Of a DNA stretch of 64,000 bases, positions 7,542 to 60,076 are shown piece after piece (position 1 is the stretch's first letter; each line of letters starts with the position of its first letter). The stretch spans positions 1 to 64,000 of the forward strand of contig NZ_MDSS02000012.1 of assembly GCF_001758425.2 (NCBI RefSeq), given 5' to 3'. The notes beneath the pieces are model-generated. The model was not told the origin of the DNA. It ran no database searches and saw only the letters and a list, made by a program, of their open reading frames with translations. A program made the translations under genes and the position numbers. Source of the DNA: Nesterenkonia sp. PF2B19. GTDB taxonomy: Bacteria > Actinomycetota > Actinomycetes > Actinomycetales > Micrococcaceae.

Positions 7542-7611
7542 CAGGGTCTTCCTTCCGGAGTGGGCGGTGCGCTGCCGCGTCACCAGAGGGTCGGGTGCGG
7601 GAGGACGACGG

Positions 7612-8241
7612 TCAGCGGGCGTGACGCACACAGGCTCGACGCAGCGCCCGGACGAAGCTGCGGGCCTCCTCCACGGCGGTGTCTCCTTCGGCGGTGGCGG
7701 CGATGCGGAGCACGATGTCCTCGGGCACGACGGTGCCGTCGTCGCCGTGGTCAGCCATGCAGTCCGGGTCTCCGCAGTGCACCGGCGCCGTCTCGAAGCG
7801 CGCGCCGCCGGTCCAGTTCATGTTCAGCGTCACCTCCGCCAGTCCCCGCTCCGGACGGAAGCTCTCCGGGCGTCGGTGCACCTCGGAGAGGATCACCGAA
7901 CGGATTCGGCTGACGGGGACGACCTCCGTGGAGATGCGCGCCACCGTGTCGGTCCGACCGGCGGTCCCGGCGTCGTCGGCCTCCACGTCGTGGTCGTCCA
8001 GATGGGCGACGACGATCACGTCCTCGGCCAGCGCCAGCACGGTGATGTGCCGGTGCACCTCCTCCATGTCGAAGTGGGTGTCCACATGGACGATCTGGTG
8101 CGTAGGCTCGCGGCCGTCCAGGGCGTCGGTCACCGTATGGTGCACAAGCGTGGGGTAGAAGCCGCCGCGCTCGATCGCCGCGCGCAGCGAGAGTGTCGAA
8201 GAGGGCGCGGAGTCGTCATGGCTGAAGGTCATGGAAACCAT
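7612..8241 (-). CDS. DUF5998 family protein
   Basis: The 209-residue soluble protein (HTVTDALDGREPTHQIVH, SRIRSVILSEV, VTLNMNWTGGARFE, then a VHCGDPDCMADHG segment with two Cys) matches a conserved actinobacterial family of unknown function. The ATG at 8241 has a good GAGGGAGGG ribosome site six bases upstream. Its end is 70 bp from the phosphatase gene, so the two are probably one transcript. Its start is only 52 bp from oleA, which runs the other way. Confidence 0.8.
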   Translation of the reverse strand: MVSMTFSHDDSAPSSTLSLRAAIERGGFYPTLVHHTVTDALDGREPTHQIVHVDTHFDMEEVHRHITVLALAEDVIVVAHLDDHDVEADDAGTAGRTDTVARISTEVVPVSRIRSVILSEVHRRPESFRPERGLAEVTLNMNWTGGARFETAPVHCGDPDCMADHGDDGTVVPEDIVLRIAATAEGDTAVEEARSFVRALRRACVRHAR

Positions 8242-52060: not shown

Positions 52061-52968
52061 ATGACCCACTCTGACCAGTCTCAGCCTCTGGCCGCCCAGG
52101 CGGTCGCCCCTGCCAGCTTCGCCGTCGACGACCTTCCCAAGCGGGCGATCGGCATCGACGTGGGCGGCACCGGCATCAAGGGCGGGATCGTCAACCTCCA
52201 GAAGGGCAAGCTGACCGGCGAGCGGTTCCGCATCCCGACGCCGAGGCCGGCCACGCCGGAGGCCGTCGCGGAGGTCATCAGCACCATCCTGGAGGAGCTG
52301 CTGGGGCGCGAGAAGGCGCCCTCCCGCGATGAGCTGGCCGTCGGCGTCCTGGTGCCCGGCATCGTGATCGACAACGTCGTGCTCTCCGCCGCCAACATCG
52401 ACGACTCCTGGATCGAATGCGACGCCGGTGAGCTGCTGCGCCCGCTGCCCGGTGACGTCTCCACGCTCAACGACGCCGACGGCGCCGGTCTGGCTGAGGC
52501 ACGGTACGGCGCTGGCGCTGGACGCGCGGGCAGCGTGCTCACCGTCACTCTGGGCACGGGGATCGGCTCTGCCTGGTGCATGACGGGGTGCTGGTCCCCA
52601 ACAGCGAGCTGGGGCACCTGGAGTTCGAAGGAGAGGTCGCCGAGCAGAAGGCCTCGGCCGCGGCCCGCGAACGCGTCGACATGCCCTGGGACGAGTACGG
52701 GCGGCTCCTGGACCGCTACCTCACTCACGTCGAGCGCCTGTTCTCCCCCTCCCAGTTCATCATCGGCGGGGGCATCTCCAAGCGCAGCGAGGACTTCCTC
52801 CCCCACGTGACCAGCACCCGCGCGCCGGTGGTGCCTGCCCAGCTGAAGAACAACGCGGGCATCGTCGGCGCGGCGCTCTTCGGCGCCGAGCAGCGCGCCC
52901 TGGCGCGGCGTTCCGCGGCCGTGGACCCGCAGCAGGAGGCCGCTGAGAAGATCAGCGCGGACGCCTGA
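52061..52968 (+). CDS. ppgK: polyphosphate glucokinase, frameshifted
   Basis: About 302 residues. This ROK-type sugar kinase phosphorylates glucose using polyphosphate or ATP and is typical of Actinobacteria. Phosphate loop IGIDVGGTGIKGGIV, the TLGTGIGSAL region, LGHLEFEG and the ending LKNNAGIVGAALF are present. A missing C near 52570 (TCTGCCTGG for TCTGCCCTGG) shifts the frame inside GTGIGSAL. A TATCCT -10 at 51913-51918 lies about 140 bp upstream. The remaining 254-bp gap after map shows nothing else. Confidence 0.92.
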
Positions 52969-53089: not shown

Positions 53090-53162
53090 GGGCCTTTAGC
53101 TCAGCTGGTAGAGCATCGCGTTTACACCGCGAGTGTCATCGGTTCGATCCCGGTAGGGCCCA
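53090..53162 (+). tRNA. tRNA-Val (anticodon TAC)
   Basis: The 73-base gene folds into a full cloverleaf. The acceptor stem pairs GGGCCTT with AGGGCCC (one G-U). The D-arm is GCTC-AGCTGGTA-GAGC, the anticodon arm TCGCG-TTTACAC-CGCGA with anticodon TAC, and the T-arm ATCGG-TTCGATC-CCGGT. CCA is not encoded. A strong hairpin follows at once. Confidence 0.96.
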
Positions 53163-53163
53163 C

Positions 53164-53196
53164 CGATGCCCGGCACGGTCTCCGTGCCGGGCATCG
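53164..53196 (+). terminator. terminator after tRNA-Val
   Basis: A perfect 15-bp stem (53164-53178 with 53182-53196) around a TCT loop begins right after the tRNA, followed by TCGTTCC. It should end the tRNA transcript. Confidence 0.88.
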
Positions 53197-53397: not shown

Positions 53398-56300
53398 ATG
53401 GTGGTTGTCGAGGTGCTGGGGCCGGTGCAGGTCAGACGCGACGACGGCACCGTCGTCCGTCCGCCAGGCCTGCAGGCGCTGCTGCTGAGCATGCTGGTCG
53501 TGGACGCAGACCAGATCGTCACGACGGATCGGCTGATCGACGTCATGTGGGGCGCTGCCCCGGATGATCGTGCTGCTCATCGCCTGCAGTCCCATATCCA
53601 CCGGCTGCGCCGCACACTCGACACCGGTGCCACGATCGAGGCCGACGGCGGCGGGTACCGTCTGAGCCTCGAAGGCGGGGCTGTCGACGCGGTCCGCTTC
53701 GAGAAGCTCCTCGCGGAGGCACGGAGGGCGGCCGAGATCGGCGACCATGACCAGGTGGTGACGCTGTGTCGCGACGCTCTCTCCCTGTGGCGGGGCGCAC
53801 CGTTCGAGACCATCGAGACCACACGTCTGGCCGGAGCATCGCGGCGCCTCCACGACCTTCGCTCGTCCACCTGGGAACTGCTGCTGGCCTCGGAGCTGTC
53901 CCGGGGAAACCACGAGACGGTGGCGCGAGAGATCGAGCCGCTGGTCCGTGAGCACCCGCTCCGCGAGCGCCTCCACGAACTGCTCGTCACGGCCCTCTCC
54001 CTCTCCGGTCACCACGCCGACGCGCTGGGGGCCTGTGAACGCGCCAGGACATGGCTTCTGGATGAGCTCGGCGTCGAGCCCGGACCCCGGCTGCGAGAGC
54101 TGCATCGCATGGTCCTCGCCGAGGAAGCGATACTCGTCGACCCGGGCACGTCCGTCCCGAAGCCGTCCCGCCAGGTTCCCGCCCAGCTGCCGGTGTGTCC
54201 CCGTGTCTTCGTCGGCCGCACGGACGTCCTTCGGGAGCTTGACGAGGGGAGGAGCCGTGCTGTCGATCCGGTCAGGATCTTCTGCCTGACCGGTGGCGCC
54301 GGCACTGGCAAGACGGCGCTGGCCGTCTCGTGGGGACATGCGGTCACAGGCGACTTCCCGGACGGACAGCTGTACATCGATCTGCGGGGCTTCGGCCCGG
54401 ATGAGCCTCGGGACCCTACGGAAGCACTGCCCGGACTTCTCACTGCTCTGGGCGTCCCGACGGCGGAGATTCCTGATGGCGAGCACGAACGATCAGCCCT
54501 GTTCCGATCGGCCATGTCAGGTCGTCGGATGCTGGTGGTGCTCGACAACGCCAAGGACGCCGACCACGTCCGGCCTCTGCTCCCGGGGACATCGGAGTCA
54601 GTCACCGTCGTGACCAGTCGTTCGCAGCTGACCGGACTGGTCGTGCAGGAAGGTGCGCATCGCCTCCCGTTGGGTCCGCTCTCCCCGGAGGAGACTCAGC
54701 AGCTCATCGCGGACCTGGGCCTGCCGCTGGATGACTCACAGGCCGATTCCCTGGCAGCAGTCTGCTCGCGCCTCCCCCTGGCCCTGCGTATCGCAGCCGA
54801 GCGTATGCGGTCAGGAGGCGCCCAGGAACTGGACGCGCTCCTCGCCTCGCCCCAGGACGTCCCTCCTGACGCCGGGGCTCGGCTGGACGTGTTGGACGTC
54901 GGAGAGGACCGGGCGTCCGTTCGCGGCGTCTTCTCCTGGTCCTACCGTCACCTGGACCATGACTCCGCATGGATCTTCCGATGCTTCGGCATCTCACCGT
55001 CCGCTGAACTGAGCCTGGGTCCGCTCTCAGCGCTCGCCCACCTCGATGAACGCGCCACCCGGCGCGGCGTGGAGACGCTCCGGCGTGCTCATCTGGTCGA
55101 GCCGGTGTCCCGGGGGCGCTACCGGCTTCATGACCTGCTTCGGGTCTACGCGATCGAGCTCTCCGAGAATCACGATCCGGAGTCGGCGCGGCAGCGAGCC
55201 TTCGCCCGGCTGTGCGATCACTATCTCGAGCGGGCGCCTTGGCCATGGTGGTCCGCATGCCCCACCAGACCGACCATCCCAGCATCCAGGACCTGGCAGG
55301 CAGGGCGAAGGCGACAGGAGCCGACGTCGACGTCCGGTCAGCCATCACCTGGCTCACCACCGAACGTGAGAATCTCGTCCTCACCTCGGAGGAGGCCGCC
55401 CGCCGCGGGGGCCATCCCTTCTCCACAGACCTCTCCGAGATCATCTGGCGCGATCTGTACCATGATGAGGCCCATGTGCTGGCGGAGCGACTGCATGGCG
55501 CTGCGCTCCGAGCGGCTCGCCATGTCGACGATGCTTCTGGGGAGGGCACTGCGCATCGACGTCTTGCCATCACCGCGGTGAACCGTGCGCGTCTCGACGA
55601 GGCCCAGCATCACGCCGCACGCGCCCTGGAGCTCCACGCGACGGCCGATGCCCTCAAGGAGATCGCCGCTGACCGGGACACGCTCGGTGCGTTGAGCTTC
55701 TACCGTTGTCGTCCGGCCGACGCGGGTGCGCACTTCGAATCCTCGGCTCACGCTCACGAGGAGCTGGCAGATCCGCGAGGGGGCTGCGCCATGGCCAATG
55801 CCGGTCTGGTCCATCAGCGGATGGGGCGCTTGGACGATGCCCTGTTCTGGCTGGGGAAGGCACTGGACTACAGCCACCAGCACCACCAGACGTCTGATGA
55901 ATGCTCCGCCTGTGCGTCCCTCTCCCTGGTGCACAGAGAACGGGGCGAACTCGAGACATCTCTGAGATGCGCCGAGCAGGCCATTGCCCTGGCACAGGAC
56001 ATTGCGGCCGCGGACCTCGAAGGTTTCGCCCGGGCGGAGATGGGCAAGACGTCATGGCTGTCGGGTGAGACCGCCACAGGGCAGCACCTGCTGGACCAGG
56101 CGCTCGACGTGGCAGAGCGACTTGTGATCGAGGACCTGGCGTCGGAGGCCCGGTTCGGTCTCGGGGAGATCGCTCTTGACCGCGGGGACCTCCACCGTGC
56201 GGTCGGCCTCTTCACTGCGGCCCTCGACGTCTCGGACCAGTATTGGTACGAGTTGGCCCAAGCCCATAGGGGGCTGGCCCGGACCTTCGACGCGCTCGGC

Positions 56301-56414
56301 TCAGTCGACGAAGCGACGGAGGCCTGGCGGCGGGCCGCGGAGATCTATACGGCTGTCGATCATCCTGACGCCGAGGCGCTGCGACGACGGGCGGCGGGCG
56401 GACCCGCTCCGTGA
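53398..56414 (+). CDS. AfsR-like SARP regulator: BTAD, NB-ARC and TPR domains (first copy), frameshifted
   Basis: About 1005 residues. An OmpR-type winged helix (residues 5-90, VVVEVLGPVQVRRDDG) and BTAD domain (to about 245, ending LGVEPGPRL) form the SARP DNA-binding part. A STAND ATPase follows (VFVGRTDVLREL, P-loop GGAGTGKTAL near 299, MLVVLDNAKD). The last 400 residues are TPR-like helices. A lost base near 55240 separates HYLERA from LAMVVRMPHQTDHPS. AfsR proteins activate target promoters after ATP-driven or kinase-driven switching. It is a clear paralogue of the gene at 57015, and a small gene lies antisense between them. Confidence 0.88.
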
Positions 56415-56426
56415 GCGCCGGGGACA

Positions 56427-56714
56427 TCAGCGCCGAGCTGGGCCGCACGGGGTCAGCCTCCGCGGACCCGGCCGCTCGCCCTCACGGCAGATACCCGTAG
56501 GCGCAGCCGTGGCCCGGGCGACCATGTCGTCGTGCCGCCGCCGCGCTTCCCAGCCGACCAGTCGGCGCCGGTGGATCTCCTGGGGCCCCGGCCGCTCGCG
56601 TCGGACGACGCAGATCTCCTCGCAGCGGCTGGCCCACAGCACCAGGCGCGCGCCCAGCTCGTAGGCCAGCCGCCGCGCGGCGGGGATGCTGTGGACATCG
56701 ATGATGCTGGTCAT
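56427..56714 (-). CDS. small protein between two SARP genes, predicted SARP target
   Basis: 95 residues from the ATG at 56714, with a good AGGAG five bases upstream. The first 50 residues (MTSIIDVHSIPAARRLAYEL, then GARLVLWASRCEE) look like real protein with an amphipathic helix. The last 20 are Arg/Pro-rich and may be altered by a frame error. There is no signal peptide or clear membrane segment. I do not recognise the family. Three heptamers at 56785-56813 lie about 70 bp upstream in the orientation and phase expected for SARP activation. By position and size it resembles afsS, the small target next to afsR in Streptomyces, although the sequences are not alike. Confidence 0.6.
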   Translation of the reverse strand: MTSIIDVHSIPAARRLAYELGARLVLWASRCEEICVVRRERPGPQEIHRRRLVGWEARRRHDDMVARATAAPTGICREGERPGPRRLTPCGPARR

Positions 56715-57014
56715 GGTTCTCCTCACGCAGACATGTCTCCGGCTGCAGGTCCCCTCCTCGTATGGCTCCACTGTGCCGACACCGCCTCACAGTCTCCTCA
56801 CACGGGCCTCACACGCCCTTCTGCAGCGGTCCGCTCAGCCGCTGACCTGGGACGTCTCCTCTCCATCGGCGCCGAAGAGTTCTCGGAGAGCGCTGCGGCA
56901 CGGTACCGTGTCATCGTCGGGCACGGTCGTCGCAACGGGAGGGGAGGATCGCCCCGGCGGTCGCGGGCGCCGCCATCCGGAGGCACCGCTCCGGAGTCTG
57001 CCGGGGATCATGAC
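56715..57014. promoter_or_regulatory. 300-bp region between the small gene and the second SARP gene
   Basis: No further gene is convincing here. It holds the heptamer array at 56785-56813 and, on the minus strand, a CACAGT (56775-56770) as candidate -10 for the small gene. I see no clear promoter for the second SARP gene. Confidence 0.4.
56785..56813 (-). promoter_or_regulatory. SARP-type operator: three TGTGAGG heptamers at 11-bp spacing
   Basis: CCTCACA occurs exactly at 56785, 56796 and 56807 (TGTGAGG on the minus strand). On the minus strand the last heptamer ends nine bases before CACAGT, a candidate -10, and the expected -35 position reads AGGAGA, which is poor. Heptamers in 11-bp phase about 8 bp from the -10 with no good -35 are the known layout of SARP-dependent promoters. 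Confidence 0.62.
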
Positions 57015-60000
57015 ATGCCGATCTTCGAGGTGCTGGGGCCTGTACGCGTTCGTCGCGATGACGGCAGCACACTCACCCCGACAGGTCTGCAGTCCCAGCT
57101 GCTGGGGCTGCTCCTGGCGAACCCCGGCCGCCTGCTGACCCATGACCGGCTCGCCGACGCGATGTGGGGATGCCCGGCGGATCCGCGGATGGTCCATCGC
57201 CTGCAGACGCACGTGCATCGCCTGCGCTCCGCCGTCGGCGACCTGCCCCTGGCCGCGGACCCCGGTGGGTACCGGCTTCAGATCACCGCGGAACAGACCG
57301 ACGCCGGACGGTTCGAGTCCCTGGTCTCCGCGGCGGCCGACGTCGCCGCCCAGCAGCCAGCCCAGGCCGCGGCACTCGCCCGTGAAGCCCTGAACCTCTG
57401 GCGCGGACGACCGTTCCACGGCCTGGAGACCGAGGAGACCGCGGCGGCATCTGTGCGCCTGCAGCATCTGCGGGTCACCGCGTGGGAGGAGCTCTACGCC
57501 GCTGAGCTGACCTGCGGGCATCATGCGCTCGTGGCCGACGAACTGCCACCTGTCGTCGATCAGCACCCGCTGCGTGAGCGCCTCCGCGAGCTGCTCATGA
57601 TGAGCCACGCCGCAGCGGGCCGTCAGGCCGACGCCCTGGCTGTCTTCCACGAGGCACGCTCGGTGCTGCGCCGGGAACTGGGTGTGGAACCGGGCCCTGG
57701 ACTGCAGGACCTGCAGGCGCGGATCCTCTCCGGTGCCGCACTGGACCATGACCGTCTTCCGCCTGCCGCGGCCCTCGAGGCGCTGTCACGCCAGCGGGCC
57801 GGCGTCCACGGGGCCTGCGCGGCTGTGGAGGTCCCAGCTCAGCTGCCCGCCCGGCCGCGAGGATTCATCGGACGCGACGCCGAGCAGAGTGAGCTCTGGA
57901 CGTGGCTGGACGATGACCATCGTCCGGCGTCGCTGTTCACACTCATCGGCGGCGCCGGCGTCGGCAAGACCGCCCTGGCTCTGCATTGGGCCCACGAGAT
58001 CGCCCACCGGTTCCCCGACGGTCACTTGGCGGTGGACCTGCGGGGGTACGGTCCCGAGGATCCCGTGCCTGCAGAACAGGCCCTCGCCGGGTTCCTGCGC
58101 GCTCTCGGCACGGACGTCGAACACGTCCCCGACGGACTCGACGAGCGCGCGGCGGCCTTCCGGTCCCAGACGGCGGAACGACGCCTGCTGATCCTGCTGG
58201 ACAACGCCCGCGATGTGTCCCAGGTGCGGCCGCTGCTGCCCGGAGGCTCCGGTTCCCTGGTCATCGTGACGAGCCGGACCGCGCTCACGGGGCTGGTGCT
58301 GCAGGAGGGCGCGCACCAGATCGCCCTCAGCACGATGGGCGACGACGACTCACGCCGCCTGCTCGGACAGCTGCTGGGCCCGGCGCCCAGCGCTGATCAG
58401 CTGGAGACCCTCGCCGACCGGTGTGCGCATCTGCCGCTGGCCCTGCGTGTCGCCGCCGAACGTGTCCGGGGGATCGGATCTGAGGACCTTCCGACGGTCC
58501 TGGAGGATCTCGAGGACCTGCAGGATCGACTCGACGTCCTCGACCTCCACGCCACCGGGGACCAGGCGTCCTCCATGCGAGCGGTGTTCTCCTGGTCGTA
58601 TCTGGGCCTCGAGCCGACCCCAGCCTGGCTGTTCCGCTGCTTCGGCGTCGCACCGGCCCATGAGCTCAGCCTCCAAGGCCTGTCCGCCCTGGCGGGGCTC
58701 GAGCTCCGCATCGTTCGGCAGGGGGTAGAGGGGCTGCGCCGAGCCCATCTGGTGGAGAGCTGCGGGCCTCACCGGTACCGCCTGCATGACCTCCTCCGCA
58801 GCTACGCGATCGAGCTCACCGAAGACCACGAGGGCGACACCGTCCGGGAGGCGTGTCTCGACCGTCTGTCCCGCCACTACCTTCGGGGCGTGGCGGCCGC
58901 TTTGGAGATCCTCATGCCCGAAGAGATGACCATCCCCGAGGCGCGGGATCTCCTCGACGCCGACACCGTCCGGCCGTTCAGCCGGAAGACGGACGCAGCG
59001 GAATGGCTCGAGCAGGAGCTGCCCCATCTGCTCGTCACCGCGGAGCACTGTGCCGATGGCGGCCAGCCGCGCTTCGCCGTCGTGCTGTCCAAGCTCCTGC
59101 GTCGCCACCTGGACCGCTCCCCCTATCTGCACAGCGCCCACCGGCTGCACACCGCAGCCTTCCTGGCCGGCCGCCGCCTGGAGGACCTGGCCGCACAGGG
59201 CCACTCACTGCGGATGCTGGGGCGAGTGGCCCTGCTGCGGGTGCAGCTGGAGGAGTCGCGTGAGCTGCTGGAGCGGTCCGTGGACTGTCACCTCCGAGCC
59301 GGAGAGGAGCGTGAGGCCGCCGTCACCCGAGGGCTGCTGGGAGGGGCCCACGCCTATCGCGGAGACATCCGCGGCGCCCTGCGCGAGCACCGATCCTCCG
59401 TGGACACGCTGCGGGCCCTCGACGACCCGGCGGTGTGCTTCTCCCTGGCCAACTGGGGGCTGGCCCACCATCTGCTGGGTGAGGCGGACGAGGCCCGCAG
59501 GCTCCTCCACGAAGCAGTCGACATCAGCCGGCAGCGCGGCTCGCCCTACGGCGAGTCCGTCGCCCTGCTGAACCTGACCCTGACCTACGCGAGCACCGGA
59601 GAGCATGAGGCTGCGTTGGACCTCGCCCGGCGGACGCTGCGACTGGCCACCAGGCTGGGGCGTCGCGCTCGCGCCTGCCAGGCCCTGGTCAGCGCCGGAG
59701 AGGCGCTCCACGGCGTGGGCCGGCGCAAGGTCGGTCACCGGCTCGTGCGGTTGGCCCTGACCGAGGCCGAGATCTGGGGCAGCGGGACATCATCGCCACC
59801 GCCCACCTGGCGCTCGGCGGCCTGACGCGAGAGGCCCGGGCGCTGCAGCACAGCAGGTCCCACCTGCTCATCTCTCTGGAGCAGGCGCGCGGGCACTGGG
59901 ACCTGGAGGCGCTGACCCTGATCAGTCTGGGCGAGACATGCTCCGCGACTCAGGACCCAGACGGTGCGCGGGAGGCATGGGGCCAGGCGCTGGCGATCTA

Positions 60001-60076
60001 CGAGCGGGTGGGCCACGCTCACACGCCGGTCCTGCGGCGTCGTCTTCAGGGCGTCGAGTCTCCGGCGGTCACCTGA
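57015..60076 (+). CDS. AfsR-like SARP regulator: BTAD, NB-ARC and TPR domains (second copy), frameshifted
   Basis: About 1020 residues from the ATG at 57015 (MPIFEVLGPVRVRRDDG). It has the same domain order as its neighbour: winged helix, BTAD (to LGVEPGPGL near residue 233), NB-ARC (GFIGRDAEQSELW, P-loop GGAGVGKTAL near 312, LLILLDNARD) and long TPR helices. A missing G near 59780 (TGGGGC for TGGGGGC) shifts the last 95 residues into the frame that begins GQRDIIATAHLALGGL and ends at 60076. The two copies are diverged along their whole length, so the duplication is not recent. Confidence 0.88.

Follow-up and report, generated by a model that had tools for sequence, protein, structure and literature searches.

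Two regulators of the AfsR type lie in tandem in a 64,000-nucleotide stretch of DNA from Nesterenkonia sp. PF2B19 (here called the window, on contig C33 of the assembly), and a small gene between them is preceded by a triple direct repeat. A sequence-only reading of this stretch had proposed an AfsR/AfsS-like switch, in which a regulator turns on its small neighbor through the repeats. This raises the question of what reads the repeats, which genes they serve, and whether regulator and small gene form a conserved unit. The features of the locus, including the regulators R1 and R2, are listed in Table 1.

Table 1 Features of the regulator locus, in window coordinates
Feature	Position	Strand	Support
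tRNA-Val(tac), at the upstream border of the stretch missing from sister genome G003	53090..53164	+	ARAGORN, Rfam
R1, first piece: OmpR-type DNA-binding, BTAD, NB-ARC	53398..55581	+	PF03704 E 1e-35
R1, second piece, other frame: TPR part	55212..56414	+	TPR_12 E 1e-14
95-aa small ORF, basic; low-confidence model with two helices (12-40, 44-70)	56427..56714	-	ORF list, 44%/39% relatives
Proposed −10 element CACAGT	56770..56775	-	same hexamer and distance at C87 and in Amnibacterium
Proposed SARP operator: three TGTGAGG in 11-bp phase (CCTCACA on the plus strand)	56785..56813	-	pattern counts
R2: AfsR-type regulator with DNA-binding, BTAD, NB-ARC and TPR parts, oriented divergently to the small ORF	57015..59825	+	PF03704 E 2e-36

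The three CCTCACA heptamers are exact and 11 bp apart, as had been reported, with starts at 56785, 56796 and 56807. On the minus strand, nine bases separate the last TGTGAGG from the start of CACAGT, exactly where that hexamer had been placed. No sigma-70-like −35/−10 pair was found at 56380–57040, in agreement with the poor −35 described in the sequence-only reading. SARP promoters are described as carrying 11-bp direct repeats, the last of which lies about 8 bp before the −10 (PMC10936776). The window shows the same layout, with an 11-bp phase and a heptamer nine bases from the −10 element (eight if read one base on), and its spacing, −10 position and repeat number all match published SARP promoters. 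Both this geometry and the recurrence of the layout elsewhere in the genome and in Amnibacterium, described below, support the SARP-type operator originally proposed, to which a regulator would bind.

We counted how often such an arrangement occurs. The 29-base triple pattern, with up to three mismatches, was found once in the window (shuffle mean 0.01, 100 shuffles) and once in the 3.70-Mb genome (134 contigs; reversed control 0). Perfect triples of any heptamer at period 11 numbered one in the window, whereas 60 Markov simulations averaged 0.017. The same scan, covering periods 8–30, also yielded one perfect triple each at periods 15 and 21. This, and the fact that any genome will contain some repeats, favors the view that the repeats arose by chance and have no function.

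Recurrence of the repeats at a fixed distance from a −10 element argues against chance. A heptamer-pair search of the genome, with up to two mismatches, produced 21 matches, 19 of them outside the window, and 12 matches for the reversed control. At the nine-base offset, nAnnGT followed 5 of the 19 non-window pairs, versus 7 over 30 other offsets (binomial 3e-6), and the looser form nAnnnT, which was not derived from the sites, gave 5 at offset nine versus 16 over the other offsets (1.5e-4). The nine-base offset had been named beforehand in the sequence-only reading and thus held up genome-wide, and the nAnnGT form was chosen after the first sites had been viewed. Two of the five, on contigs C69 and C123, have two repeat mismatches and are weak, and we did not count them as regulon members.

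The core pair TGTGAG-N5-TGTGAG has 5 matches at 4 loci in this genome and 7 matches in the 29 other genomes of the genus (controls, 2 in the 30 genomes). At N10 after the pair, nAnnGT is present at all 4 loci in this genome and at 0 of 7 in the others. The exact full pattern, TGTGAG-N5-TGTGAG-N10-nAnnGT, occurs at four sites in this genome, a count that is partly by construction since the core and nAnnGT were fixed after the first matches, and at none in the other 29. The pair count alone is only mildly unusual: 0.51 were expected from a window-based Markov model, and the probability of at least three further loci was 0.015, or 0.002 when the rate in the other genus genomes is taken. With two mismatches allowed, the full pattern gave 9 matches in this genome (control 1), but the 29 others together also had 71 (control 48), and weak sites are therefore inseparable from chance. 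In a sample of the order, 2 of 396 genomes contained the exact full pattern, namely this one and G288, where its two sites lie ahead of a secreted repeat-rich protein and a lipoprotein (kinds read from sequence).

The exact-form loci are on contigs C33 (the window, CACAGT), C56 (TAGGGT), C95 (CAGAGT) and C122 (GAGAGT), and a fifth site, on C87, has one mismatch and an equally spaced CACAGT. Further upstream, C33, C122, C87 and Amnibacterium have a third repeat that matches in at least 5 of 6 letters, which C56 and C95 lack. The putative operator is one of several alike and is not private to the R1–R2 locus.

TGTGAG pairs were also seen in another context. At L053, L056 and L058 (G002, G023 and G019, respectively, all of the genus), a pair within a similar stretch follows a gttatcgtcctgttat-like run without the −10 layout and is probably another conserved element. 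The sequence TGTGAAAAACATGTGAGTG, or a near form of it, is found in four genomes of the genus, at G000 (this genome) C22:86216, G003 C1:3265943, G010 C4:368898 and G015 C1:534692, and is a conserved element.

When public genomes were scanned for three phased TGTGAG repeats, at least 117 stretches were returned. In Amnibacterium kyonggiense DSM 24782 (L141, box at 7587–7614), the exact triple is followed by ten bases and then CACAGT. The twelve bases TGTCGGCACAGT are identical in this species and the window, and the Amnibacterium ATG lies 7 bases on. The ORF behind the box encodes an exporter-type ABC ATPase (motifs read by eye) and is seemingly leaderless, and a BTAD-ATPase gene is located about 1.9 kb away on the opposite strand. 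A general enrichment of nAnnGT after the public triples, which we also considered, was not seen: among the matches listed for the at least 117 loci, 3 of 125 array ends had nAnnGT at N10, with a mean of 1.6 at other offsets. At these loci, tblastn with R1, R2 and R4 detected no BTAD genes among the matches listed; after R3 and the Amnibacterium protein were added, L141 alone was detected among the matches listed, by its own query. Because the R1, R2 and R4 queries had missed the L141 gene, other distant BTAD genes may be missed too; the Pfam run among these loci covered L141 only. With no −10 enrichment and no other BTAD gene among the matches listed, the Amnibacterium case draws on the shared 12-mer and the neighboring gene. 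The presence of TGTGAG triples in many unrelated public genomes would fit chance repeats, but the fixed −10 offset and the identity of the Amnibacterium 12-mer are not easily accounted for in that way, and we consider functionless repeats very unlikely.

The proteins that might read the box were then classified by their domains. Trans_reg_C and PF03704 scored above the curated cut-offs in both R1 and R2, as did NB-ARC and TPR_12 in R2. The NB-ARC match of R1 was below its cut-off (19.4 vs 23.5), and the R1 TPR sits in the second piece. With an OmpR-type DNA-binding domain plus BTAD, and NB-ARC plus TPR, R1 and R2 are classified as SARPs of the AfsR type (SARP-STAND). R2 matched AfsR structures with an E value of 1.9e-36, and the first piece of R1 is 49% identical to R2 over R2 residues 2–644. 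Neither reaches the AfsR equivalog NF053617, with 429 bits for R2 and 395 for the first piece of R1 against a cut-off of 1430. The two AfsR-type regulators described in the sequence-only reading therefore have the BTAD, NB-ARC and TPR domains assigned to them, but R1 is split over two frames and the R2 frame, starting at 57015, already closes at 59825, before the given end at 60076. Because of this split, the function of R1 is uncertain. The glucokinase gene at 52061–52968 is also in two frames, both pieces aligning at more than 90% with neighboring parts of a single G003 locus; the frame breaks in both genes may well be assembly indels.

The genome has five BTAD genes, two on C33 and the others on C46, C57 and C134, whereas the contigs with the remaining four box sites (C56, C87, C95 and C122) showed none. 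Four of the five regulators, R1–R4, have the recognition helix HRLQ[TS]H[VI]HRLR in common, and the fifth has LQAKLSQLR instead. R4 (L012 5189–8400, on C46) is also frame-split, with a DnaE2-like gene (judged by its sequence) directly downstream. Among five sampled relatives of the genus, four contain a total of 8 BTAD genes and G020 has none; six of the eight helices are LQAKLSQLR or near, one is LRVHISHLR and one is LRVLISQLR, and the R1–R4 form was not seen in these five genomes. G288 has three BTAD matches, one of which, LQQHVSRLR, is closer to R1–R4. The Amnibacterium helix, IQMLVSRVR, differs from that of R1–R4, so that box and helix do not correspond one-to-one. In the alignment, T65 and R69 of R2 fall on T88 and R92 of AfsR, and R1 has a serine at the first of these positions. 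Both AfsR residues are described as contacting bases in the solved complex (PMC10936776), R92 at the T in repeat position three, and the AfsR repeat is given as CGTT(T/C)ATCGNN (PMC10972967). When the repeats are aligned from the first base, which is our own choice, TGTGAG would also present a T at position three.

The boxes might instead be read by an OmpR/PhoB-type response regulator that is not a SARP. Proteins of this type likewise recognize 11-bp-phased direct repeats a short way ahead of the −10, and geometry alone cannot separate them from SARPs. SARPs themselves are described as having the OmpR-type fold (PMC10936776). However, within the genus sample only this genome has the exact box together with its −10, the HRLQTHVHRLR regulators are likewise confined to it among the genomes sampled, and the triple lies between two of these regulators here and near a BTAD gene in Amnibacterium. 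We regard such a response regulator as unlikely and prefer a SARP-STAND protein as the reader of the box.

The small antisense gene between R1 and R2 is open for 95 aa, as originally called, with GAGGAG, a good Shine-Dalgarno sequence, ahead of its ATG, which lies 55 bases after CACAGT. A single-sequence AlphaFold model contained two helices at low confidence (mean pLDDT 70, pTM 0.27), and the protein had no match in Pfam or NCBIfam. In 58 genomes (this one and 57 relatives), its relatives were one protein in G003 (44%) and a second copy in the same genome as the window, on C58 (39%). The three aligned proteins have 22 invariant columns, and the C-terminal ~20 residues of the protein from the window are without counterpart in the other two. 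An order-level search, in which up to 12 candidates were scored per genome, gave matches in six other genomes at E values of 2.5e-4 to 9.2e-4; five were taken as noise, with open frames of 443–789 aa or stops inside, and the sixth, in G251, has an open frame of 148 aa.

Both clear relatives of the small protein adjoin an amidase gene (named from its sequence), and no SARP was seen near them in the 3.2-kb loci. In G003, methionine aminopeptidase, glucokinase, tRNA-Val and the ABC ATPase follow in the order found in the window, but R1, the small ORF and R2 are replaced at the tRNA-Val site by other genes spanning 2.2 kb. Judged by synteny, the block clearly differs from the sister genome. No relatives of R2 at E 1e-60 were found in the 29 other genus genomes, nor did a peptide-pattern search of the genome contigs reveal close ones; in the order sample, with two candidates scored per genome, only G315 (38% identity) passed E 1e-120 besides this genome. 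The idea of an AfsR/AfsS-like two-gene module kept as a conserved unit did not survive this comparison: in the relatives sampled, the small gene is not kept beside the regulator, and R2 is without genus relatives at that threshold. A tRNA-borne island with a duplicated tRNA end was also rejected; the window has no other exact direct repeat of tRNA-Val of 14 bases or longer, and the G+C across the R1–R2 block is like that of the surroundings.

The candidate targets of the boxes are mostly small. In addition to the 95-aa ORF on C33, the box lies ahead of a 65-aa ORF with a signal-peptide-like start on C87, a membrane-protein-like ORF on C56 that is truncated by the contig end and at least 189 aa long, and ppc on C95, whose ATG is 375 bases after the −10. 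On C122 (L063 3597–3948), it lies ahead of an 18-aa hydrophobic ORF, MLEFLTTVMNFMNIMYIL, preceded by GAGGAGG. Like the 95-aa protein, the 65-aa and 189-aa proteins had no match in Pfam or NCBIfam. The 320-nt stretch on C122 folds far better than shuffled copies of itself (z −5.8; none of 100 was as stable) and includes a 14-pair stem-loop at L063 3916–3948; it is possibly a peptide or small RNA gene. At Rfam gathering thresholds, the window and four loci showed no structured RNAs at the target promoters, the sole match besides tRNA-Val being Actino-pnp (L097 7460–7534), about 620 bases from the box.

The direction of the boxes also bears on whether the triple mainly controls R2 through autoregulation, the small ORF being incidental. 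The triple is placed between divergent genes, with R2 beginning 200 bases away, and the conservation of the small ORF is thin, both of which would suit this idea. Nevertheless, CACAGT, the Shine-Dalgarno sequence and the ATG are all on the minus strand, toward the small ORF, and the boxes at C56, C122 and C87 likewise point at Shine-Dalgarno-preceded ORFs, which makes autoregulation of R2 quite unlikely as the main role.

Taken together with the observed recurrence, fixed geometry, rarity in relatives and common helix, our preferred reading, with a probability of roughly 0.65, is that the triple is a site for a SARP-STAND (AfsR-type) activator within a regulon and is read by one or more of R1–R4. 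Activator protomers would sit side by side on the TGTGAG repeats, on one face of the DNA, and stand in for the missing −35. As described for AfsR (PMC10936776), protomers on neighboring repeats would contact RNA polymerase and sigma. The polymerase could thereby use the weak CACAGT −10, so that the 95-aa ORF would be transcribed leftwards. The same double or triple box, at the same −10 distance ahead of at least four other transcription units, would make up the regulon, and one or more of R1–R4, with their common recognition helix, would read it. From the family, ATP and the TPR part may set the activity of the regulator. Binding, activation, the start sites, the acting regulator and the signal sensed by NB-ARC/TPR all belong to what we infer.

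The data point to a small regulatory network with targets that are mostly small or envelope-related, and not to a module of two genes. More tentatively, four paralogues might form a genome-specific STAND-SARP network with one TGTGAG specificity, directed at tiny genes, a membrane protein and ppc, the same box in G288 and Amnibacterium serving secreted proteins and an ABC exporter; this wider picture is possible but doubtful. What is new here is the TGTGAG box of a candidate SARP-STAND regulon; among the matches listed for SARP/AfsR in the open-licence literature, TGTGAG was not found. If the preferred reading is true, it would be a second STAND-SARP with several dispersed targets, small genes included, outside the Streptomyces work found. 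The AfsR-to-small-gene logic would then extend beyond antibiotic clusters, and TGTGAG-N5-TGTGAG-N10-nAnnGT would offer a searchable box for locating such regulons.

Among known systems, a PafBC-type promoter was considered for its like spacing. In the PafBC / RecA-NDp promoters of mycobacteria, a TGT-containing element lies about 16 bases before the start of the −10, as here, and follows a sigma-adaptation logic, but the element is single, without phased repeats, and the targets are DNA-repair genes. With no repair genes among the five targets, this type was rejected. A three-repeat operator has a precedent in PimR, a SARP with a large extra domain whose operator, as here, consists of three heptamers that 4-bp spacers set in 11-bp phase (PMC5930380). 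PimR differs from the present case in its heptamer, CGGCAAG, its one target gene and its SARP-LAL rather than NB-ARC/TPR architecture (PMC5930380). The AfsR box is described as 22 bp long and made up of two 11-bp repeats, and its −10, CACTGT, as weak (PMC10936776). The AfsR/afsS system of Streptomyces coelicolor, as these sources present it, resembles the window in its large SARP with NOD and TPR, its 11-bp direct repeats (PMC10936776, PMC10972967), its weak −10 of the CACTGT type, its poor −35 and its small target gene beside the regulator, and R2 keeps the residues corresponding to T88 and R92. Unlike in AfsR/afsS, the repeat here is TGTGAG-N5 rather than CGTT(T/C)ATCGNN, the small protein is without a Pfam or NCBIfam match, and R1 and R2 score far below the AfsR equivalog cut-off. 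Furthermore, the present genome has several like paralogues and several candidate target promoters, and the sampled relatives do not keep the unit.
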